A DNA stretch of 39,019 bases from a bacterium (lineage in GTDB: Bacteria > JAHJDO01): contig JAUSPT010000032.1 in the NCBI GenBank assembly GCA_030652805.1, positions 70,973 to 109,991 on the forward strand. Reading direction: 5' to 3'. Each line of letters begins with the position of its first letter. Within the stretch, counting starts at the first letter, position 1. The position numbers and the translations under genes are program-made. The notes under the pieces are model-generated. The model saw nothing but the letters and a program-made list of their open reading frames with translations, did not search any database and was not told the DNA's origin. Below are positions 3,061 through 25,062 of this stretch, one piece after another.

Positions 3061-6000
3061 CTATCTTTCATAAATAACAGTGATCTTCCTCTCCCCGAGC
3101 ACCTCGTCGTCAGTATCAAAAGTCCCGTTCCCATTCTTATCCAGAACTGACTGGCCTGTGCAGATTATTTTAAATACATTGGATTTTGTTGTTATGAGGT
3201 TGGAGATAGGTTGAAATGTTGTAGTACCTATAGTTGCTGTTGGAGCAGTAACAAGATGTCCAATAGTTTGGAATGGCCCGTCGTCAATAATTTTCTGTGC
3301 TGTGGATGCACCTATGTTTTTTAGTCCATTAAGCACAGGAACAGAAGCTGTATTTATATTTATTCTGCCATATGTCTTTGACGCAGGGGTGAGAAGGACA
3401 TAATCAAAAAACACAGAGTCTGCGCTTGAAGCATCTGCTTGAATAGCAACGCTCAATGTAGTATCTGACACAACAACCTGTCCAAACCGCGCGCCGTAAT
3501 CTGTGCTTGGAGTAATAAGCGCAGTGTCATCATCAACTCTCACCCTCATTGCCCCGCCTTCTCTTCCGTAAACATACATAATATAAGTATCCGCTTCAAA
3601 GCGGTCTATTGTTGTGTACCATGTCCATGTATCCTCATTCGTAGATGCGGAAGCATCTGCTTTAAACCAGTACAGTTCATCAGTTGCCTCATTAAGCTCT
3701 CTCCCCCCATATTTACGTTTTGTCTCCTCATCATCACCTAAGAGACTCTCTAAAGTCCAGTTTGAAACTTGCGTTAAATCCGCAAACTCAGCGTCAAGCC
3801 GTCTTCCCGAGACAGTGATCCTGTCTGCGATGTTTCGTATTATATGCTCTCCACCGCTATGTTCGGTAGTGTTTCCTATGTTCACCCATTTTTCTCTGCT
3901 GAATGATACATCTGCTACCTCTCCTATGTTTGCAAACGGAGAATTCTTCACTTTAATATTGGTTAATGCAGCCCCATTGTTTGCCGCTGCCGGGCTGCCT
4001 TTAGTATTTGCGCTTATCAGCCATGTATCGAAGATGCCTGAATCATTCAATACATCGTCTCCAACATAAGCTGGATCGTCTCTCTCCATAGAATAAAAAT
4101 CATTATCCTGTATTATTGAACTATCCCATAAAACTTGATCAACTATATGTCCCGCAGGAGTAGCTATTCCTGTCGTCGGATCTGTTGTTGGCGTGATGGA
4201 GTCGTCATAAAGCCGCAAAGGACTGTCTATTAAAACCGTATCTGAAATAATATCGTCCAGAACGTCATTTGTAAAACCAAGCTGATACACATTGCTTAAA
4301 CCTGGATATGTCTTTGTAAAATAAATACCATTATTGTACACTTCAGCTCCATTATTAACATCTGAATCAGCCATGTCTACAGCAAGAACACAATATCCGC
4401 CACTTGCAGCAATACTCGTCCCGCTGGGAATAGTTCCAACCTGCCCATTCGGAAACTCAAGATGCCAGCCGTTCATTGTAACTGCATTTTCGGAAATATT
4501 CACAAGCTCAACATATTCACAGTCAGGGGATTGGGAGAGCTCAATGCGGTACCAGGACCAAGGGCCTGCACCAGCTGATGGTGTTTTTATTTCCAAATGT
4601 AACTTTTTATTCGATGATATTATAATTGTATCAGCATCTGTTCCCTCTGCAGTCAAATCAACTGCTCCTACACTTTTCCAATATCCAACTCCTGTATCAT
4701 CCGATACAGCTGTCTTTACAATTACATCATCGCCACTTCCAAATATTTTTAATTTATAACTCCCTTCTTCCAAATCTGAACCTGACCACATCCACATACC
4801 ACTGTCATTATTATCCGTGGATCCCCAATTAGGTGCGCTATAACTCCATCCACCTGCTGGAGCTAAAGATTCATAACTTGAAGTCGCATCTTTCCTGAAC
4901 ACAGGCCTTACCATAACCTCATTTATTCTTATTCCTTCAACGCCGTAGCGGGTAAGGACAGTGCCGCCTGGCCCTTCAATATCAATTCGCGTTGAGCCGT
5001 TATCACGATCCCTAAAATCAATTATGTTCACTGCCATTTGAGCAAGCTCTGCTGTTGTAGCAGAAGTTCCCCAATAATCAAAGGCGTCCCTCAGAGTTGA
5101 ATATAATTCCATTGCAGAGCTTACAGCGTTGATGTTTAAGCGCGCCAGCCCTGAATCCGTAAGGTTTTTGTCAGAAGAAAAGGTTGTGATGTAAGAATCA
5201 AAATCACTATACTCACTACCTGTTACGTCCGCAAGTGAAACAACCTCAGCAGGAGTCAGATAAGGCGTATCAGCGCTGAGATTGCTGGAAGCAGTGTATG
5301 GCCTGGCAATATAAAACTCCGCTGAATCGTCTACCCCCTCATCTCCTTCGTCAGCAAAACTATCTCCATCATTATCTATCCCGTCATTATTCAGAACAAC
5401 GCTGTCAGCATTATCGTCATAACCCGAAATCCCCGCACAGCCGTCTGTTCCATAGCGTACTTTTATAATTTCCCTGCCTTTTGCATCACTAACTCCTGCA
5501 ATATCGCAAACCGGTTTGATATTTATCTCACCTGTTGTCCATCCCTCATTTCCAAAGGAGCCATGGCGTCCTGTGTTTATATTTATCTTGCCTGACTCAT
5601 CAATGACCAGAACAGCGTATCTGCCAATCAGGTGTCCCTGCGAATCAGTTAGATATACCCAGCGGGAGTCTGACCCGGCAACTGCCGCGCCTGTTGAAGC
5701 CACATCATCATCATTGCTCACGCAGGAATCTGCATCAGCGCCATAGGCGCCGAAAAGCGTAGAATCATACCCCCAGTCATCGCCATACCAGTCATATCCT
5801 TCATAACTGCAATAAGCTGGCGGCTGATTTGAAGGGTCGCCATCCAGTTTCAAAACGCCAATTGCGTGCTGAATGCCCGCTTTCGCAATGTAGTCCGCTT
5901 TTATCCCACTCATATAATTGGCTGCTGCGCGCTGGTCCATTATCATGCTGTATGAAAAAGCAGCAGCAATAGAGGCAAGAACAGCCATAATGGAGACAAC

Positions 6001-6183
6001 TATTATGAGGGCAATACCATTTTTATTAGGGCAAATCCGAAATCCTAAATCCGAAATCCTAAACAAATTTAAAATTCTAATTCTCAAAATTCTAAACCCC
6101 GTTTTGAACATTTGTATTTTTGTCATTTGATATTGTTTCGTATTTCGTGCTTCGTGCTTCGAATTTAATGCTTTTGTAATCAT
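3061..6183 (-). CDS. gspK: GspK-like minor pseudopilin with inserted lamin-tail domain
   Basis: The 1040-residue protein is far longer than an ordinary GspK (about 300-350). A prepilin-type helix starts after Gly56 (NG|IALIIVVSIMAVLASIAAAF) and lacks the usual Glu5, as is normal for GspK. GspK-like parts are DESGKININT (195-204) and a C-terminal helix-hairpin-helix (GRININTA, about 940-985). Between them lie Asp-rich calcium-type repeats (about 267-287), a lamin-tail domain (INEVM at 420 to about 735, with EYVELVNIS at 556) that appears split by a beta-rich insert (about 430-550), and another beta-sandwich-like stretch (835-935). The ATG overlaps the gspJ stop (ATGA), which supports this start even though residues 4-50 are encoded by the long repeat R1. 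Probably the tip of the pseudopilus. Confidence 0.85.
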   Translation of the reverse strand: MITKALNSKHEARNTKQYQMTKIQMFKTGFRILRIRILNLFRISDLGFRICPNKNGIALIIVVSIMAVLASIAAAFSYSMIMDQRAAANYMSGIKADYIAKAGIQHAIGVLKLDGDPSNQPPAYCSYEGYDWYGDDWGYDSTLFGAYGADADSCVSNDDDVASTGAAVAGSDSRWVYLTDSQGHLIGRYAVLVIDESGKININTGRHGSFGNEGWTTGEINIKPVCDIAGVSDAKGREIIKVRYGTDGCAGISGYDDNADSVVLNNDGIDNDGDSFADEGDEGVDDSAEFYIARPYTASSNLSADTPYLTPAEVVSLADVTGSEYSDFDSYITTFSSDKNLTDSGLARLNINAVSSAMELYSTLRDAFDYWGTSATTAELAQMAVNIIDFRDRDNGSTRIDIEGPGGTVLTRYGVEGIRINEVMVRPVFRKDATSSYESLAPAGGWSYSAPNWGSTDNNDSGMWMWSGSDLEEGSYKLKIFGSGDDVIVKTAVSDDTGVGYWKSVGAVDLTAEGTDADTIIISSNKKLHLEIKTPSAGAGPWSWYRIELSQSPDCEYVELVNISENAVTMNGWHLEFPNGQVGTIPSGTSIAASGGYCVLAVDMADSDVNNGAEVYNNGIYFTKTYPGLSNVYQLGFTNDVLDDIISDTVLIDSPLRLYDDSITPTTDPTTGIATPAGHIVDQVLWDSSIIQDNDFYSMERDDPAYVGDDVLNDSGIFDTWLISANTKGSPAAANNGAALTNIKVKNSPFANIGEVADVSFSREKWVNIGNTTEHSGGEHIIRNIADRITVSGRRLDAEFADLTQVSNWTLESLLGDDEETKRKYGGRELNEATDELYWFKADASASTNEDTWTWYTTIDRFEADTYIMYVYGREGGAMRVRVDDDTALITPSTDYGARFGQVVVSDTTLSVAIQADASSADSVFFDYVLLTPASKTYGRININTASVPVLNGLKNIGASTAQKIIDDGPFQTIGHLVTAPTATIGTTTFQPISNLITTKSNVFKIICTGQSVLDKNGNGTFDTDDEVLGERKITVIYER
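6033..6175. repeat. long dispersed repeat, copy R1 (coding, gspK leader)
   Basis: About 143 bases beginning AAATCCGAAATCCTAAATCC and ending with repeated CGTGCTT units. It is largely built on a 7-base period (AAATCCG/AAATCCT at one end, TCGTATT/TCGTGCT at the other). Here it lies entirely inside the 5' end of gspK and is read in frame. Further copies, all in this orientation, are at 8836, 19240 and 23009. Confidence 0.9.
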
Positions 6184-6947
6184 TCTGCTCCCGGCATAAA
6201 CACAGTGGTCTCAAAGGTCTGAGTATCTTCTCTCGCCTCTTCGTCACGGGTTTTGAGAACTATCTTTATCTTTTTTGGCAATTTATATAAATAGGTATCT
6301 GCGTCTGAATCATTAGAGCCCCAGTTCACATGAGAGTCTTCGTCATCACAACCATCATCACCATAATAATAAAAGCGAAGATCTGCGACTGCAATGCCGA
6401 GTGAGTGATTATTAGTGGCATCTATATCTGACTGAAAGATGAAATCAAGATTACTAACCTGACGATGCTTAATAAGTTCCGTATCATCCTTTACCCAGTA
6501 TCCTAATTCGCACATATCAGATTTAGTGGTATTTGAAGAGTCTTTTATATCAGACATTGGATATACAGGGGCTATAAAAAATAATTCGTCTGCTGTGCTT
6601 CTTACATCATCCTTTACTTTACCAGATTCAGATTTATCCACTCCCAGCATATATATCTTTCTCGCCTCGTTGACCATTGCGCATGATATCTCTCTTGACA
6701 TCATCTCCAGAATCGCTCTTGCGTTCTGATACCGCTCCATTCTTACATTGCCCTTTGTCCATGAATCGGTACCGCCCTTAAAAATAGAATAAATGCCTGT
6801 TATCAATAAAGCCAAAACCGCTGTTGTAATCATGATTTCAATCAATGTAAAAGCAGAAGTAGACCATAGACCATAGACCATAGACCATGGTTTTGTACTG
6901 TCGTCTGTCGTCTGTGGTCCGTCGTCTGTTTTTATTTCACATAGCAT
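6180..6947 (-). CDS. gspJ: GspJ/PilW-like minor pseudopilin
   Basis: The 255-residue protein has a prepilin N-terminal helix STSA|FTLIEIMITTAVLALLI with Glu5, so it should be processed by prepilin peptidase and inserted in the inner membrane. The position between gspI and gspK and the size suit GspJ (PilW in pilus nomenclature). The -1 residue is Ala rather than the usual Gly. The leader of 32 residues is unusually long and is encoded by two arrays of four 7-base units (6861-6927). A Met inside that array (WSMVYGLW) is an alternative start. The ATG at 6947 overlaps gspI by 16 bases. The link to secretion or piliation is inferred from the family. Confidence 0.85.
   Translation of the reverse strand: MLCEIKTDDGPQTTDDSTKPWSMVYGLWSTSAFTLIEIMITTAVLALLITGIYSIFKGGTDSWTKGNVRMERYQNARAILEMMSREISCAMVNEARKIYMLGVDKSESGKVKDDVRSTADELFFIAPVYPMSDIKDSSNTTKSDMCELGYWVKDDTELIKHRQVSNLDFIFQSDIDATNNHSLGIAVADLRFYYYGDDGCDDEDSHVNWGSNDSDADTYLYKLPKKIKIVLKTRDEEAREDTQTFETTVFMPGAE
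6861..6927. repeat. two heptanucleotide arrays in the gspJ leader
   Basis: Four perfect AGACCAT units (6861-6888) are followed after 11 bases by four GTCGTCT-type units (6900-6927; the third is GTGGTCC). Both are in the coding part of gspJ, upstream of the prepilin cleavage point. Loss or gain of one unit would shift the reading frame. Confidence 0.92.
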
Positions 6948-7351
6948 GTTACAAACTCCTCAATTCTGGTATCGCCTCTATCATTACAGTAAATCAATAC
7001 AGATGCATGATATAGGTTTGTGAGTGTTAAATCCTGAGTAATTGTTTGTATCCATGAGAAAGAAGAATAATCAGGATCAGCGCCGGGAACAGAGAAAAAA
7101 GTGTTACTTGTTGTGCTATCAATAGGTTTTTCCTGCTCAATATCACTCATTTTCTGCTGACCGAGAAATGTCATCATTGTATGATCTCCTGCATGCTTGC
7201 TTGCCCTGAGTCCTACAGGGAACATTTGAATAAGTCCAAGAAGCGCAATAGACAGAATAGCCATTGAAATAACAAGTTCAAGAAGACTAAATGCTCCGAC
7301 ATTCATCGGAACAATTTTGAATTTTGAATTTTGAATTTTGAATTTACTCAT
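6932..7351 (-). CDS. gspI: GspI/PilV-like minor pseudopilin
   Basis: The 139-residue protein has a prepilin segment VGA|FSLLELVISMAILSIALLG with Glu5, then RASKHAGDHTMMTFLGQQKMSDIEQ, resembling the GspI/PilV pattern. The -1 residue is Ala. The first 12 codons (KFKIQNSKFKI) come from a CAAAATT heptamer array. A second Met at residue 16 (7306), just after the array, could be the original start (MNVGA|FSLLE), in which case the array would be leader RNA; neither start has a strong ribosome site. The first ATG forms TAATG with the gspH stop, favouring coupling. Role: a priming subunit of the pseudopilus tip, by family. Confidence 0.84.
   Translation of the reverse strand: MSKFKIQNSKFKIVPMNVGAFSLLELVISMAILSIALLGLIQMFPVGLRASKHAGDHTMMTFLGQQKMSDIEQEKPIDSTTSNTFFSVPGADPDYSSFSWIQTITQDLTLTNLYHASVLIYCNDRGDTRIEEFVTCYVK
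7313..7345. repeat. heptanucleotide array at the gspI 5' end
   Basis: Four perfect AATTTTG units (7313-7340) plus a partial fifth, ending 3 bases before the gspI start codon in coding orientation. Read as CAAAATT on the coding strand. Confidence 0.93.
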
Positions 7352-7929
7352 TATTCTCTACTCGTTTTTATCCTGCCTGTAATTCCTGTTATTCCAATAC
7401 ATGAGGTGTCTTCATGTGTTCCATCACTAATCAAAATTGCTGACCCATCAGTCTCTGATGCCCCACCTGTAGGTGTAAAATAAATGTATTTTACAGTAAG
7501 AGCAGCTGGATCTGAATCATTCGGAAATGGAATCACATTAGGACCGTATGTATCCAAACCTCCTGTTACTCCATCTGTCATAATTATTGTCTTGGGCAAA
7601 GTTTTCCAATTAGTTACTGAACCTCCTTTAATATAGTCGTCAGGATCCCAATAAATTTTTACTGCATATCCAATATTATGTGTATCCGTATTGAAGTTAA
7701 AAAGAACTGCGCATCTTTTTCTTCTCTTTATCGCATGACTGCGCGCAGTGCGAAGAGCGGAAACAACGATCTGCGCTCCGCTTTTAATCCTGGAATTTCT
7801 TGTGAACTGAACAAAGGAGGGTATTGCCGCAACAAGCATAATGCTCATAATTGCAAGAACGATCATGAGCTCTACTGCTGTGAAAGCGCGGCAACCACTG
7901 GTTGCAATTTTTAATTTTGAATTTTTCAT
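7351..7929 (-). CDS. gspH: GspH/FimT-like minor pseudopilin
   Basis: The 192-residue protein carries the prepilin segment CRA|FTAVELMIVLAIMSIMLVAAIP with Glu5, followed by a region like GspH/FimT (IVVSALRTARSHAIKRRKRCAVLF, and a C-terminal ISDG). The -1 residue is Ala. Codons 2-8 (KNSKLKI) are three 7-base units placed directly after the ATG. No other Met precedes the cleavage site, so the repeat is probably translated. The gene follows gspG by 2 bases and its stop forms TAATG with gspI. Expected to be an inner-membrane minor pseudopilin. Confidence 0.85.
   Translation of the reverse strand: MKNSKLKIATSGCRAFTAVELMIVLAIMSIMLVAAIPSFVQFTRNSRIKSGAQIVVSALRTARSHAIKRRKRCAVLFNFNTDTHNIGYAVKIYWDPDDYIKGGSVTNWKTLPKTIIMTDGVTGGLDTYGPNVIPFPNDSDPAALTVKYIYFTPTGGASETDGSAILISDGTHEDTSCIGITGITGRIKTSRE
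7906..7926. repeat. three heptanucleotide units at the gspH start codon
   Basis: Three AATTTTK units (AATTTTT, AATTTTG, AATTTTT) abut the gspH ATG (7927-7929). The array is exactly 21 bases, or 7 codons, so three units keep the frame. Confidence 0.85.
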
Positions 7930-7931
7930 TT

Positions 7932-8408
7932 CTAGCTTGTCTCAGTATCCCAACATGCTATGTCATCGTCCCCACCATCAGTCTTATCTTTTCCATATGA
8001 CCAGAGGTCATAACCGCGATTTGTCAGTGGATTGTTATAATTACTCGCAGTTCCTCCTGGAGCTCTATATCTGTATTTTGTTCCATAAGGGTCATTGGGA
8101 ATATCCTTTGAAAGATAAGGTCCGCGTCCATTAGTTCCTACTGCCTGTAACATTCTCTCCAGGCTAGTCATATTTCCATCTGAAATACTAGTATATAAAT
8201 CTTCTCCACTTTGCCCTGGATATACCCCCCAATCAGTCTGATACATTGCTAACGCGTTCTCAAGACTGTGGATATCGGCTCTTCCGCGCGTTTTCTTCGC
8301 CTTATCAATCGACTTCATAAAGTTAGGCATTACAATACCTGCAAGAAGCACAATGATGCCTATTACGACCAAAAGCTCAATAAGCGTAAACCCGGATCTT
8401 TTCCTCAT
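7932..8408 (-). CDS. gspG: GspG-like major pseudopilin
   Basis: The 158-residue protein has a short canonical leader MRKRSG|FTLIELLVVIGIIVLLAGIVMPNF, then the GspG pattern: ADIHSLENALAMYQTDWGVYP, GPYLSKDIPNDPYG, and a C-terminal YDLWSYGKDKTDGGDDDIACW, which resembles the calcium-binding end of GspG. This is the best evidence that a type II secretion-type pseudopilus is involved and not only a pilus. It lies 11 bases after pilA with a GAGGGGA ribosome site just upstream of the ATG. No repeat has entered this leader, unlike its downstream neighbours. Confidence 0.9.
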   Translation of the reverse strand: MRKRSGFTLIELLVVIGIIVLLAGIVMPNFMKSIDKAKKTRGRADIHSLENALAMYQTDWGVYPGQSGEDLYTSISDGNMTSLERMLQAVGTNGRGPYLSKDIPNDPYGTKYRYRAPGGTASNYNNPLTNRGYDLWSYGKDKTDGGDDDIACWDTETS

Positions 8409-8419
8409 TTTCCCCTCCT

Positions 8420-8767
8420 CTAAAAATTAATTGTCTCTGATATGCCCTTACTGCTTCCATCAGTTATTGTGTAGCTGTTTTCTGTTGCTGTATATGAATA
8501 GCTTCCTCCCCATGGATCAGTAGGGACTGCTTTGCTTAAATATTTCTGAGAAATTAAAACAGCAAGGCTGTCCGGCAAAGTCCCGCCATTATCAGCTCTG
8601 AAAAGGTCAACGCTTTTTCTCAAAAGTACCACGTCTGCCGTTGCCTTTCCAATCTTTGACTTCTCAAGCCCTTTAAAATAATTAGGAACTATTATTGAAG
8701 CAAGCAATGTGATAATTGCCACTACAACCAACAACTCAATTAACGTAAAACCTTTTTTGAATTTCAT
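8420..8767 (-). CDS. pilA: type IV pilin / PilA-like major subunit
   Basis: The 115-residue protein starts MKFKKG|FTLIELLVVVAIITLLASIIVPNYF, a textbook type IV prepilin N-terminus with Gly at -1 and Glu5, followed by a short globular part (LRKSVDLFRADNGGTLPDS, VPTDPWGGSYSY). I place the start at 8767 because AAGGAGGTG lies immediately upstream; an in-frame ATG at 8788 would put this ribosome site inside the gene. It is the first gene after pilS and has its own sigma-54-like promoter, the usual setting for the PilR-controlled pilin. It could alternatively be a second GspG-type pseudopilin, since the PTDPWGG stretch resembles GspG. Confidence 0.87.
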   Translation of the reverse strand: MKFKKGFTLIELLVVVAIITLLASIIVPNYFKGLEKSKIGKATADVVLLRKSVDLFRADNGGTLPDSLAVLISQKYLSKAVPTDPWGGSYSYTATENSYTITDGSSKGISETINF

Positions 8768-8835: not shown

Positions 8836-8968
8836 AAATCCGAAATCCGAATATCGAAATCCTAAACAAATTCTAAATTCAAATTTTCGAAATTTCAAAC
8901 TGTTTTGAATTTTGTATTTTTGTCATTTGATATTGTTTCGTGCTTTGTGCTTCGAATTTAGTGCTTTT
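8836..8968. repeat. long dispersed repeat, copy R2
   Basis: Same family and orientation as R1, about 133 bases. It fills the region just upstream of the pilA promoter and runs into the 3' end of pilS, supplying its last 14 or so codons and its TGA. Compared with R1 it lacks one 7-base unit (TATTTCG) near that end. Confidence 0.9.
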
Positions 8969-19239: not shown

Positions 19240-19374
19240 AAATCCGAAATCCTAAATCCGAAACTCGAAACAAATCCTAAATTTAAATTTTCGAAATCCA
19301 AAACATTGTTTTTGAGCATTTGTATTTTTGTTATTTGATATTGTTTCGTATTTCGTGCTTCGTGCTTCGAATTT
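19240..19374. repeat. long dispersed repeat, copy R3
   Basis: About 135 bases, same family and orientation as R1. It fills almost the whole gap between rpmE and prfA, starting 18 bases before the prfA start codon. It would be transcribed as an inter-cistronic spacer. Confidence 0.9.
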
Positions 19375-19386
19375 GCCCTTTTTTAT

Positions 19387-23008: not shown

Positions 23009-23142
23009 AAATCCGAAATTTCAAATCCGAAACTCGAAACAAATTCTAAATTCAAATTTTCTAAATTCAAAACATTGTTTTGAACATTTGTATTTTGGTC
23101 ATTTGATATTGTTTAGTATTTCGTGCTTCGTGCTTCGAATTT
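23009..23142. repeat. long dispersed repeat, copy R4
   Basis: About 134 bases, same family and orientation as R1-R3. It occupies the gap between the RarA fusion gene and the PfkB kinase. It supplies the last ten codons (IKFEARSTKY) and the TAA stop of the fusion gene. Confidence 0.9.
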
Positions 23143-25062
23143 AATAGATTTCAGGACTCTTTTTTCTGTTACAATTATATGCACAGGGATATCTTTCTTC
23201 TCATGTGGAACATCTCTAATAACCTGAAAATCAAATGCAAGACCAATTAATACAGCCTTTCCTGAAACTGATTTTAAAAAATGGTCGTAATACCCTCCAC
23301 CACAGCCTATCCGATTTCCATTCCTATCAAAACAAACACCTGGAACAACAATTAAGTCAAGACTGCTTGTGTTTATAGGTCTATAACTTTCCTTTTTAGG
23401 AGACAAAATCCCGTATTTACCATTTACAAGATCCCTATCAAAATTTTTCAAAAGAGATGCATGCATTTCACGATTTCCATTTTCTATATAAGGCACACTC
23501 ACTATTTTACCCATTTTCATTGATTCTAAAACCATATCCTTTGTTTGAACCTCATCTCCTTTTCCAACATAAAACATAACCGTTTTAGATTTTCCAAAAA
23601 CATCCAGTTCGAAAAGCCGCTTCTTAATCTGTCCACTTTTAGTTGCTATTTCATCATAAGATGTCCTTTGGCGTTTCTCTATCATCTTCTGGCGTAATAT
23701 ATGTTTTGATGTATTGTTCATACCTTTATTACTCCTTTTTCTCAAAATCTCCATACGCTCTTTTATTTTTTTTTCATATCCCTGTTCAGTAGGATTATAA
23801 TACGCAGGAATATCAGGCGCATATTCCTGCTCCACATAATGGTCCTTATAGTTGTGCGTATACTTGTAATCCCGGCCATGGCCCAGAACCTGAGCTCCTG
23901 GATATGAGCCTACTTTAAGATGATCAGGTACTTCTTTTAATTTATTGCTCTTTACATCCTCTAAAGCCCTATCTATCCCAAGATAAGAAGCATTGCTTTT
24001 TGGAGCAGTCGCAATATAAGTTACTGCCTGTGCAAGAATTATCCTGGCCTCTGGTAAACCCACAAATTCAGACGACTGCAAAGCTGCATTAGCTAAAATT
24101 AGAGCATTCGGATCAGCATTGCCAACATCCTCAGAAGCGCATATAACAATTCGTCTTGCTATAAACCTTAGATCCTCACCTGCATAAATCATCTTTGCAA
24201 GCCAGTAAAGACTTGCGTCAGGATCTGAGCCTCTCATGCTCTTTATAAACGCAGAGATCGTATCATAATGTGAGCCTTCATCCTTATCGTATACTACCTG
24301 TCTTTTGCCAACAGCCTCTTCAGCCATCTTTATTGTAAAATGGATAATACCACTTTTATCGGGCTTGCCTAATAATACACCCAACTCAAGAGCATTAAGA
24401 GCCCTTCTTCCATCTCCGTCTGAACATTCAACAATATGTAACAATGCGTTATCATTCATTTCAATCTTCAATTTGCCAAGTCCTCTTTGCTTATCCTTTA
24501 ACGCATTCTCTATAATAAGCTTTATATCTTCATTGGAAAGAGAATATAATTGAAATACCCTTGATCTTGAAAGCAATGGACTGTTTATTGTAAAGAAAGG
24601 ATTATGAGTACTTGCTCCAATCAATGTTATAATATTATTTTCAACAGCGGGCATCAATCCATCCTGTTGCGCCTTATTAAACCGATGAATTTCATCAATA
24701 AAAAGTATTGTCTTTATATTGTTTATTTCCTTCCTCATTCTTGCGGATTCAATAATCTCGCGTATTTCTGAAATGCCGGATGTAACTGCATTAATTCTGT
24801 CAAAATGGGATTTTGTTACATTGGCAACAATATAAGCAAGTGTTGTTTTCCCTGTACCAGGAGGGCCATATAGTATTAGAGAGGTTATTTTATCATTATC
24901 AATGGTCTTTTTGAGAATCCCTCTCTCCCCTAGAATATGTTCCTGACCAACAAACTCTATAAGGGTTCTGGGTCTCATTCGAACAGCTAGAGGAGTGTTG
25001 CTGTCAAATTTTGAGTTTTGAGTTTTGAGTTTTGAATTTTTGTCAAAATCAAAGAGGTCCAT
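23113..25062 (-). CDS. rarA: RarA/MgsA AAA+ ATPase fused to 5-formyltetrahydrofolate cyclo-ligase
   Basis: This is one continuous 649-residue frame. Residues 1-445 are RarA, a clamp-loader-like ATPase acting at stalled forks: Walker A GPPGTGKT (66-73), Walker B TILFIDEIHRF, and the C-terminal family region (GSDPDASLYWLAKMIYAGED, SYPGAQVLGHGRDYKYTHNY). Residues 448-649 are a full 5-formyl-THF cyclo-ligase, which salvages 5-formyl-THF to methenyl-THF (PGVCFDRNGNRIGCGGGYYDHFL). An ATG at residue 448 (23721) has AAAAGGAG 9 bases upstream, so the second enzyme could also be made separately. Repeats enter both ends: a heptamer array at residues 8-19 and R4 at the C-terminus. Confidence 0.9.
   Translation of the reverse strand: MDLFDFDKNSKLKTQNSKFDSNTPLAVRMRPRTLIEFVGQEHILGERGILKKTIDNDKITSLILYGPPGTGKTTLAYIVANVTKSHFDRINAVTSGISEIREIIESARMRKEINNIKTILFIDEIHRFNKAQQDGLMPAVENNIITLIGASTHNPFFTINSPLLSRSRVFQLYSLSNEDIKLIIENALKDKQRGLGKLKIEMNDNALLHIVECSDGDGRRALNALELGVLLGKPDKSGIIHFTIKMAEEAVGKRQVVYDKDEGSHYDTISAFIKSMRGSDPDASLYWLAKMIYAGEDLRFIARRIVICASEDVGNADPNALILANAALQSSEFVGLPEARIILAQAVTYIATAPKSNASYLGIDRALEDVKSNKLKEVPDHLKVGSYPGAQVLGHGRDYKYTHNYKDHYVEQEYAPDIPAYYNPTEQGYEKKIKERMEILRKRSNKGMNNTSKHILRQKMIEKRQRTSYDEIATKSGQIKKRLFELDVFGKSKTVMFYVGKGDEVQTKDMVLESMKMGKIVSVPYIENGNREMHASLLKNFDRDLVNGKYGILSPKKESYRPINTSSLDLIVVPGVCFDRNGNRIGCGGGYYDHFLKSVSGKAVLIGLAFDFQVIRDVPHEKKDIPVHIIVTEKRVLKSIKFEARSTKY
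25007..25041. repeat. heptanucleotide array in the rarA 5' end
   Basis: Five units of the form ARTTTTK: one AATTTTG, three perfect AGTTTTG, one AATTTTT. It encodes KNSKLKTQNSKF near the N-terminus of RarA. The family resembles the arrays at gspI and gspH. Confidence 0.92.

Follow-up and report, generated by a model that had tools for sequence, protein, structure and literature searches.

Dispersed repeats in the leaders of minor pseudopilins and other prepilins

The pilin operon and its repeat-built leaders

The window, that is, the whole stretch of 39,019 nucleotides of DNA from an uncultured bacterium analysed here, carries on its minus strand, from 8788 to 3061, a row of pilA/gspG-like, gspG, gspH, gspI, gspJ and gspK-like genes, close to those of GspF and GspE (Table 1). 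GspE, GspF and GspG are all found in the window, and the gene order is that of type II secretion/type IV minor pseudopilins. Two genes of the prepilin peptidase family (Peptidase_A24) are present in the genome. The Pfam N_methyl profile matches gspH, gspI, gspJ, gspG and pilA, and the GspH and T2SSG domains are also matched; gspJ scores 20.8 for a cut-off of 21.2 in the whole-protein scan, and lies above the cut-off in the scan that gave 33 N_methyl hits in the genome. The profile matches of gspK are weak and concern T2SSK/PilX_N only. A type III signal (Gly/Ala and then Phe-x-x-x-Glu, with a hydrophobic stretch) is present at the N-termini of the pseudopilins, gspK being devoid of Glu5, as is usual for GspK.

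Table 1. Genes, leaders and repeats of the pilin operon (positions in the window)
Feature	Position	Strand	Remarks
gspK-like gene	3061..6183	-	1040 aa; weak T2SSK
gspK leader	6016..6183	-	56 residues; expected cleavage between NKNG and I; ortholog comparison
Repeat R1 in gspK leader	6033..6169	-	137 bp, sharp ends, degenerate heptamer periodicity
gspJ-like minor pseudopilin gene	6180..6947	-	
gspJ leader	6852..6947	-	32 residues; GAGGAG ahead of ATG
Heptamer array ATGGTCT, gspJ leader	6860..6888	-	4.1 copies; TRF
Heptamer array ACGACAG, gspJ leader	6898..6929	-	4.6 copies; TRF
gspI-like minor pseudopilin gene	6932..7351	-	
gspI leader	7292..7351	-	20 residues
Heptamer array AAAATTC, gspI leader	7313..7345	-	4.7 copies; TRF
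gspH-like minor pseudopilin gene	7351..7929	-	
gspH leader	7885..7929	-	15 residues: ~3 degenerate heptamers and palindrome GCAACCA-G-TGGTTGC
gspG	7932..8408	-	6-residue leader, repeat-free here; repeat-built in G001 and G002
pilA/gspG-like gene, from likely ATG	8420..8767	-	6-residue leader here; repeat-built in G001
R1 copy	8836..8968	-	overlaps C-terminus of histidine kinase

The initial annotation held that the leaders of gspH, gspI, gspJ and gspK are encoded largely by dispersed repeats. This is confirmed: the four leaders are built largely from heptamer arrays or from R1, and TRF recovers the arrays that had been named. The leader lengths of 15, 20, 32 and 56 residues, compared with six for the repeat-free pilA and gspG of the window, are likewise correct, the pilA value assuming that the start is the ATG of MKFKKG. 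The leaders read MKNSKLKIATSGCRA in gspH, MSKFKIQNSKFKIVPMNVGA in gspI and MLCEIKTDDGPQTTDDSTKPWSMVYGLWSTSA in gspJ, each with the expected cut before F. The gspH array (7906-7931; 3.7 degenerate copies according to TRF) is the weakest of the leader arrays.

Besides the gspK leader, the window contains R1 at 8836-8968, 19240-19377 and 23009-23151, and more copies are found elsewhere in the genome. The internal period of 7 of R1 is weak (54% self-match at lag 7). MITEs are recognised by terminal inverted repeats and a target-site duplication. The ends of R1 are sharp and match each other imperfectly in inverted orientation (AAATTCGAAGCAC / AAATCCGAAATCC); visual inspection of its aligned copies showed no target-site duplication.

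Turnover of the leaders among close relatives

The phylum sample consists of five genomes of one genus, namely that of the window (G000) and four relatives (G001-G004). Alignment of the orthologous leaders, which the initial annotation had proposed as a check, revealed other repeats or none in the four relatives. Overall, 17 of the 30 pilA/gspG-K leaders are repeat-built, from at least five repeat families, and the leaders of orthologs are almost wholly different between the five genomes, with lengths ranging from 5 to 56 residues. Empty leader sites are found among them, for example MKNRA and MANKRMSG, both followed by F. The gspI leader is MKNRA in G002 and MRNRA in G004, before the same F, carries AAAATTC heptamers in G000 and includes part of R1 in G001 and G003. 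In gspH, the empty form MANKRM(S/L)G before F is found in G002 and G004, and in G001 R1 has been inserted directly behind ATGGCAAATAAAAGA, a segment that is also conserved in G002 and G004, where the leaders are empty. The gspG leader is 6-7 residues long in G000, G003 and G004 and contains heptamers in G001 and G002, with a palindrome in G001. Repeat-like leaders of several kinds are present on gspJ in all five genomes, and on gspK, G000 and G001 have R1, G003 and G004 have another, palindromic repeat (R3), and the leader of G002 is MKIKNQNG. The GspE and GspF genes nearby, like the other T2SSE-like genes, show no insertions of this kind.

A second case of turnover was found in another phylum (that of locus L032), in which the leaders of one genome (G018) measure approximately 10-16 residues and those of another (G008) mostly 21-52 residues, four of the five containing arrays. 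As a separate observation, five orthologous pilin leaders at locus L207 (G019:C10) are approximately 40-55 residues long and contain further dispersed-repeat-like peptides other than heptamer arrays.

Repeats elsewhere in the same genome

Repeat statistics for the genome of the window were obtained from 699 kb of stretches. These contain 15 period-7 arrays, compared with none in Markov-3 simulated sequence and about zero for other periods; the leader heptamers are therefore not due to chance. A heptamer array or known dispersed repeat occurs at 43 sites of the 699 kb, mostly intergenic or at gene ends. A second operon, on contig C44, comprises four H-, I-, J- and K-like pilin genes, every leader of which is heptamer-built. 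No repeats are present in the leaders of two further pilin clusters (C32:122-125 kb and C26:37-39 kb). Repeat-built leaders can thus not be regarded as a special property of the four minor pseudopilins, as had been suggested: pilA and gspG bear repeats in relatives, the C44 operon has them as well and two clusters of the same genome have none.

Repeats are also found in proteins that are not cleaved: RarA (N-terminal linker and C-terminus), IspG (a loop), a GltD-like protein (a linker), a PilM-like protein (N-terminus) and a histidine kinase (C-terminus); a membrane protein at C31:11972 also holds an in-gene repeat. The suggestion that repeats are tolerated precisely where the protein is cut away is therefore retained in part. 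Turnover, upstream starts, stop-free orientation and cross-phylum enrichment (see below) speak for tolerance in the leaders, and the uncleaved RarA, IspG, GltD-like and PilM-like proteins speak against ‘precisely’. Prepilin leaders are favoured as repeat sites in this genome, not exclusive ones.

Some of these sites can be described individually. The AAAACTC heptamers at 25009-25040 of the window supply part of the N-terminal linker of RarA (MDLFDFDKNSKLKTQNSKFDSN), where the relative G002 has a gap, and R1 encodes the last residues of the protein. The core enzyme IspG contains an in-frame AAATCCG heptamer array (L120, G000:C44, 3326-3357) with the peptide NPKSEIRNPK. The PilM-like protein has an N-terminal extension of approximately 50 residues formed by R1 (L117, G000:C32, 122125-122235); this R1-bearing gene (C32:120658-122256) was considered as a K-like pilin and rejected, its sequence being PilM-like and cytoplasmic, and now counts as a counterexample. 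Finally, two prepilin-like genes (L003 and L018, G000:C36 and C24) lie behind near-identical open frames of 70-80 residues that resemble a mobile-element tail.

Enrichment in other phyla

We collected 80 contigs chosen by GspE similarity, blind to repeats, and defined the prepilin leader zone as the 150 nt upstream of the prepilin cleavage site, which amounts to 2% of the DNA. This zone contains 32 of the 63 period-7 arrays (compared with 1.7 on average and never more than 8 after circular shifts), and no arrays with periods of 5, 6, 8 or 9 were found in the leader zones of these contigs. Outside the genus of the window, 61 arrays are distributed among prepilin zones (30), intergenic DNA (28) and other genes (three), so that 30 of the 33 non-intergenic arrays lie in prepilin leader zones. 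Arrays are carried by 23 of 153 prepilins compared with nine of 716 other gene starts (OR 13.9, p = 7e-12), with prepilins identified by motif, genes by a simple ORF caller and loci within one order not fully independent. With these proportions, a tendency of arrays to lie at gene starts of every kind does not suffice as an explanation. Most hosts outside the genus belong to the Planctomycetota and Omnitrophota. In one planctomycete order, sampled on its own, the trend is the same (five of 37 prepilins) but does not reach significance by itself (p = 0.15), and in the further groups sampled none of 44 prepilins carries an array. All sets pooled, 38 different heptamer units were counted, which argues against common descent from one leader. 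The repeat-in-leader pattern is thus wider than first noted, extending to the relatives and to several planctomycete and Omnitrophota genomes.

Named strains among the planctomycete loci are Bythopirellula polymerisocia and Botrimarina colliarenosi. In B. polymerisocia, the AGTTTCG unit (16 exact bases) occurs at two sites in 6.1 Mb: a prepilin leader and the inside of a ribonuclease-H-like gene. On an Omnitrophota contig (L062:13223-14968), several adjacent prepilin leaders share the repeat KSTVSF.KP..., three of them ending in RSL(T/A)G before F, which suggests that these leaders may have been copied between genes.

Comparison with known systems

By description, the nearest known case is that of the Rickettsia palindromic elements (RPEs), repeats of about 100-150 bp that sit in frame in coding genes, so that the protein gains a translated peptide and is not destroyed (PMC10969869). 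The small repeats described here are also inserted in frame inside ORFs. However, RPEs are reported in unrelated metabolic genes, whereas here several unrelated families, mostly heptamer arrays, occupy prepilin leaders that would be cut off. As regards palindromicity, R3 folds strongly into hairpins (z -4.3), R1 folds weakly (z -1.9) and the heptamer arrays are non-palindromic.

Heptamers are over-represented in bacteria, and STRR-type repeats are dispersed tandem arrays of roughly four 7-base units; in Xanthomonas and Nostoc they are rich in G, lie mainly between genes and are under-represented in coding sequence (PMC4692102). The arrays studied here resemble the STRR/heptameric repeats of cyanobacteria and Xanthomonas in being tandem 7-base units, about four per array, dispersed in the genome, but differ from the Xanthomonas and Nostoc heptamers in having many units and in lying for one half in coding prepilin leaders: they do not avoid coding regions, since, outside the genus, 30 of 61 arrays fall within prepilin leader zones. 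Extra-long leaders, cytoplasmic and removed by prepilin peptidase, are known for type IVb and Streptococcus sanguinis pilins (PMC10191384). There they are described as a property of the pilin family, whereas here the length varies from 5 to 56 residues among orthologs owing to repeat insertions. In the part of the literature open to our search, we found no published description of repeats in prepilin leaders.

Discussion

Almost the only coding places that tolerate short dispersed repeats seem to be pilin-like leaders. The prepilin leader is cytoplasmic, of variable length and cleaved after Gly/Ala (PMC10191384). We consider it probable (about 0.74) that this cytoplasmic and length-tolerant leader offers in-frame repeats a safe harbour, by survivorship. 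Repeats of several unrelated families, both heptamer arrays and small elements like R1 and R3, would insert at many sites of the genome and be purged from nearly all coding DNA, or be confined to spacers, tails and loose linkers. The leader of the type III (prepilin) signal peptide would be exempt, being cytoplasmic, of any length and removed by prepilin peptidase, which would need mainly a Gly/Ala at position -1 and the hydrophobic stretch. Where pilin operons are so dense that gene ends overlap the next start, the DNA from the start codon to the -1 residue may be almost the only DNA free in length. In-frame stop-free insertions in leaders would survive there, be translated, be cut away and later be lost; such survival followed by loss would result in a fast turnover of the leaders. 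The computations show the repeats themselves, place them behind the start codon and reveal their turnover, stop-free orientation and enrichment in leaders; translation, cleavage and neutrality we infer. Survivorship would account for the mixture of unrelated repeats, for the turnover and for the stop-free orientation. Against the safe harbour stand the in-frame repeats in the uncleaved RarA, IspG, GltD-like and PilM-like proteins of the same genome, the two pilin clusters of this genome without repeats and the absence of arrays from all 44 prepilins of the further groups.

The repeats might instead lie in 5′ untranslated regions, with true starts downstream and long leaders arising as annotation artefacts. 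In gspI, a second in-frame ATG after the array, just ahead of the cut, would give a 5-residue leader like the MKNRA of relatives, and in prfA and a sugar kinase gene R1 does precede the true start. However, this gspI codon has no Shine-Dalgarno sequence, and the starts of the four genes lie upstream of the repeats. Those of gspI, gspJ and gspK are fixed by their overlap with the end of the preceding gene; the ATGA of gspJ/gspK, which the initial annotation had invoked for translation, is real and places the gspK start upstream of R1, and gspJ has GAGGAG 8 nt before its ATG. More generally, 29 of the 35 array-bearing prepilins have no in-frame ATG, GTG or TTG between the array and the cleavage site, typically 3-24 nt away, and 26 of the 35 have a Shine-Dalgarno-like start upstream of the array. 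Because 7 cannot be divided by 3, all three frames of a perfect heptamer array yield the same peptide, and a stop-free unit is therefore open in any frame; 39 of 41 leader-zone arrays are free of in-frame stops in their actual orientation, compared with 25 of 41 if reversed (discordant 15:1). Because of the missing starts and this orientation, the leader repeats are very probably translated. Mis-annotated starts are rejected for most cases, and untranslated repeats are a very improbable general explanation.

A more active role can be imagined for the arrays. Array-bearing leaders often keep only 1-8 residues between the array and the processed bond, so a functional role may be considered: gain or loss of a 7-base copy shifts the frame, and selected arrays could thus serve as a slippage switch (phase variation) or as an expression tuner, or leader cassettes could be gained and swapped in a targeted manner, switching or tuning pseudopilin synthesis in several phyla. 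The restriction of leader enrichment to period 7, which is not divisible by 3, and the recurrence of arrays with unrelated units in prepilins of several phyla agree with a switch, and heptamer repeats can drive phase variation elsewhere, as for HMW1A of Haemophilus (PMC8262952). Yet the same leaders are occupied by the non-tandem R1, R3 and R4, many orthologs are without arrays, and between the genes around them, too, seven is the common period of tandem repeats. Moreover, the arrays have few copies, and 3-5 heptamers are too few for fast slippage. We regard this role as unlikely. Leader cassettes might also be copied from one pilin gene to another through recombination or gene conversion, with the homologous pilin gene start as target, and a single insertion would then spread along the operon. 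This would fit the leader parts common to gspH and gspI of G001 (FRICSTRA), to pilA and gspG of G001 (IVPKAFG), to gspJ and gspK of G003 and G004 (R3) and to several L062 leaders (KSTVSF.KP). But the units mostly differ within one operon (three heptamers and R1 in G000), and the same repeats are present at unrelated intergenic sites; as the explanation of the pattern such copying is highly unlikely, and it may operate alongside survivorship.

If slippage or cassette swapping did take place, prepilin leaders would be an evolved hypermutable control element. If they are a safe harbour, as we favour, the prepilin leader would be a natural landing zone for in-frame repeats in several phyla and a clean test bed for the origin and spread of heptamer repeats, and it would show how little prepilin peptidase demands of the leader. 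Leader length would then be a poor character for pilin classification in these groups, and the starts of repeat-bearing prepilin genes would easily be miscalled in annotation.
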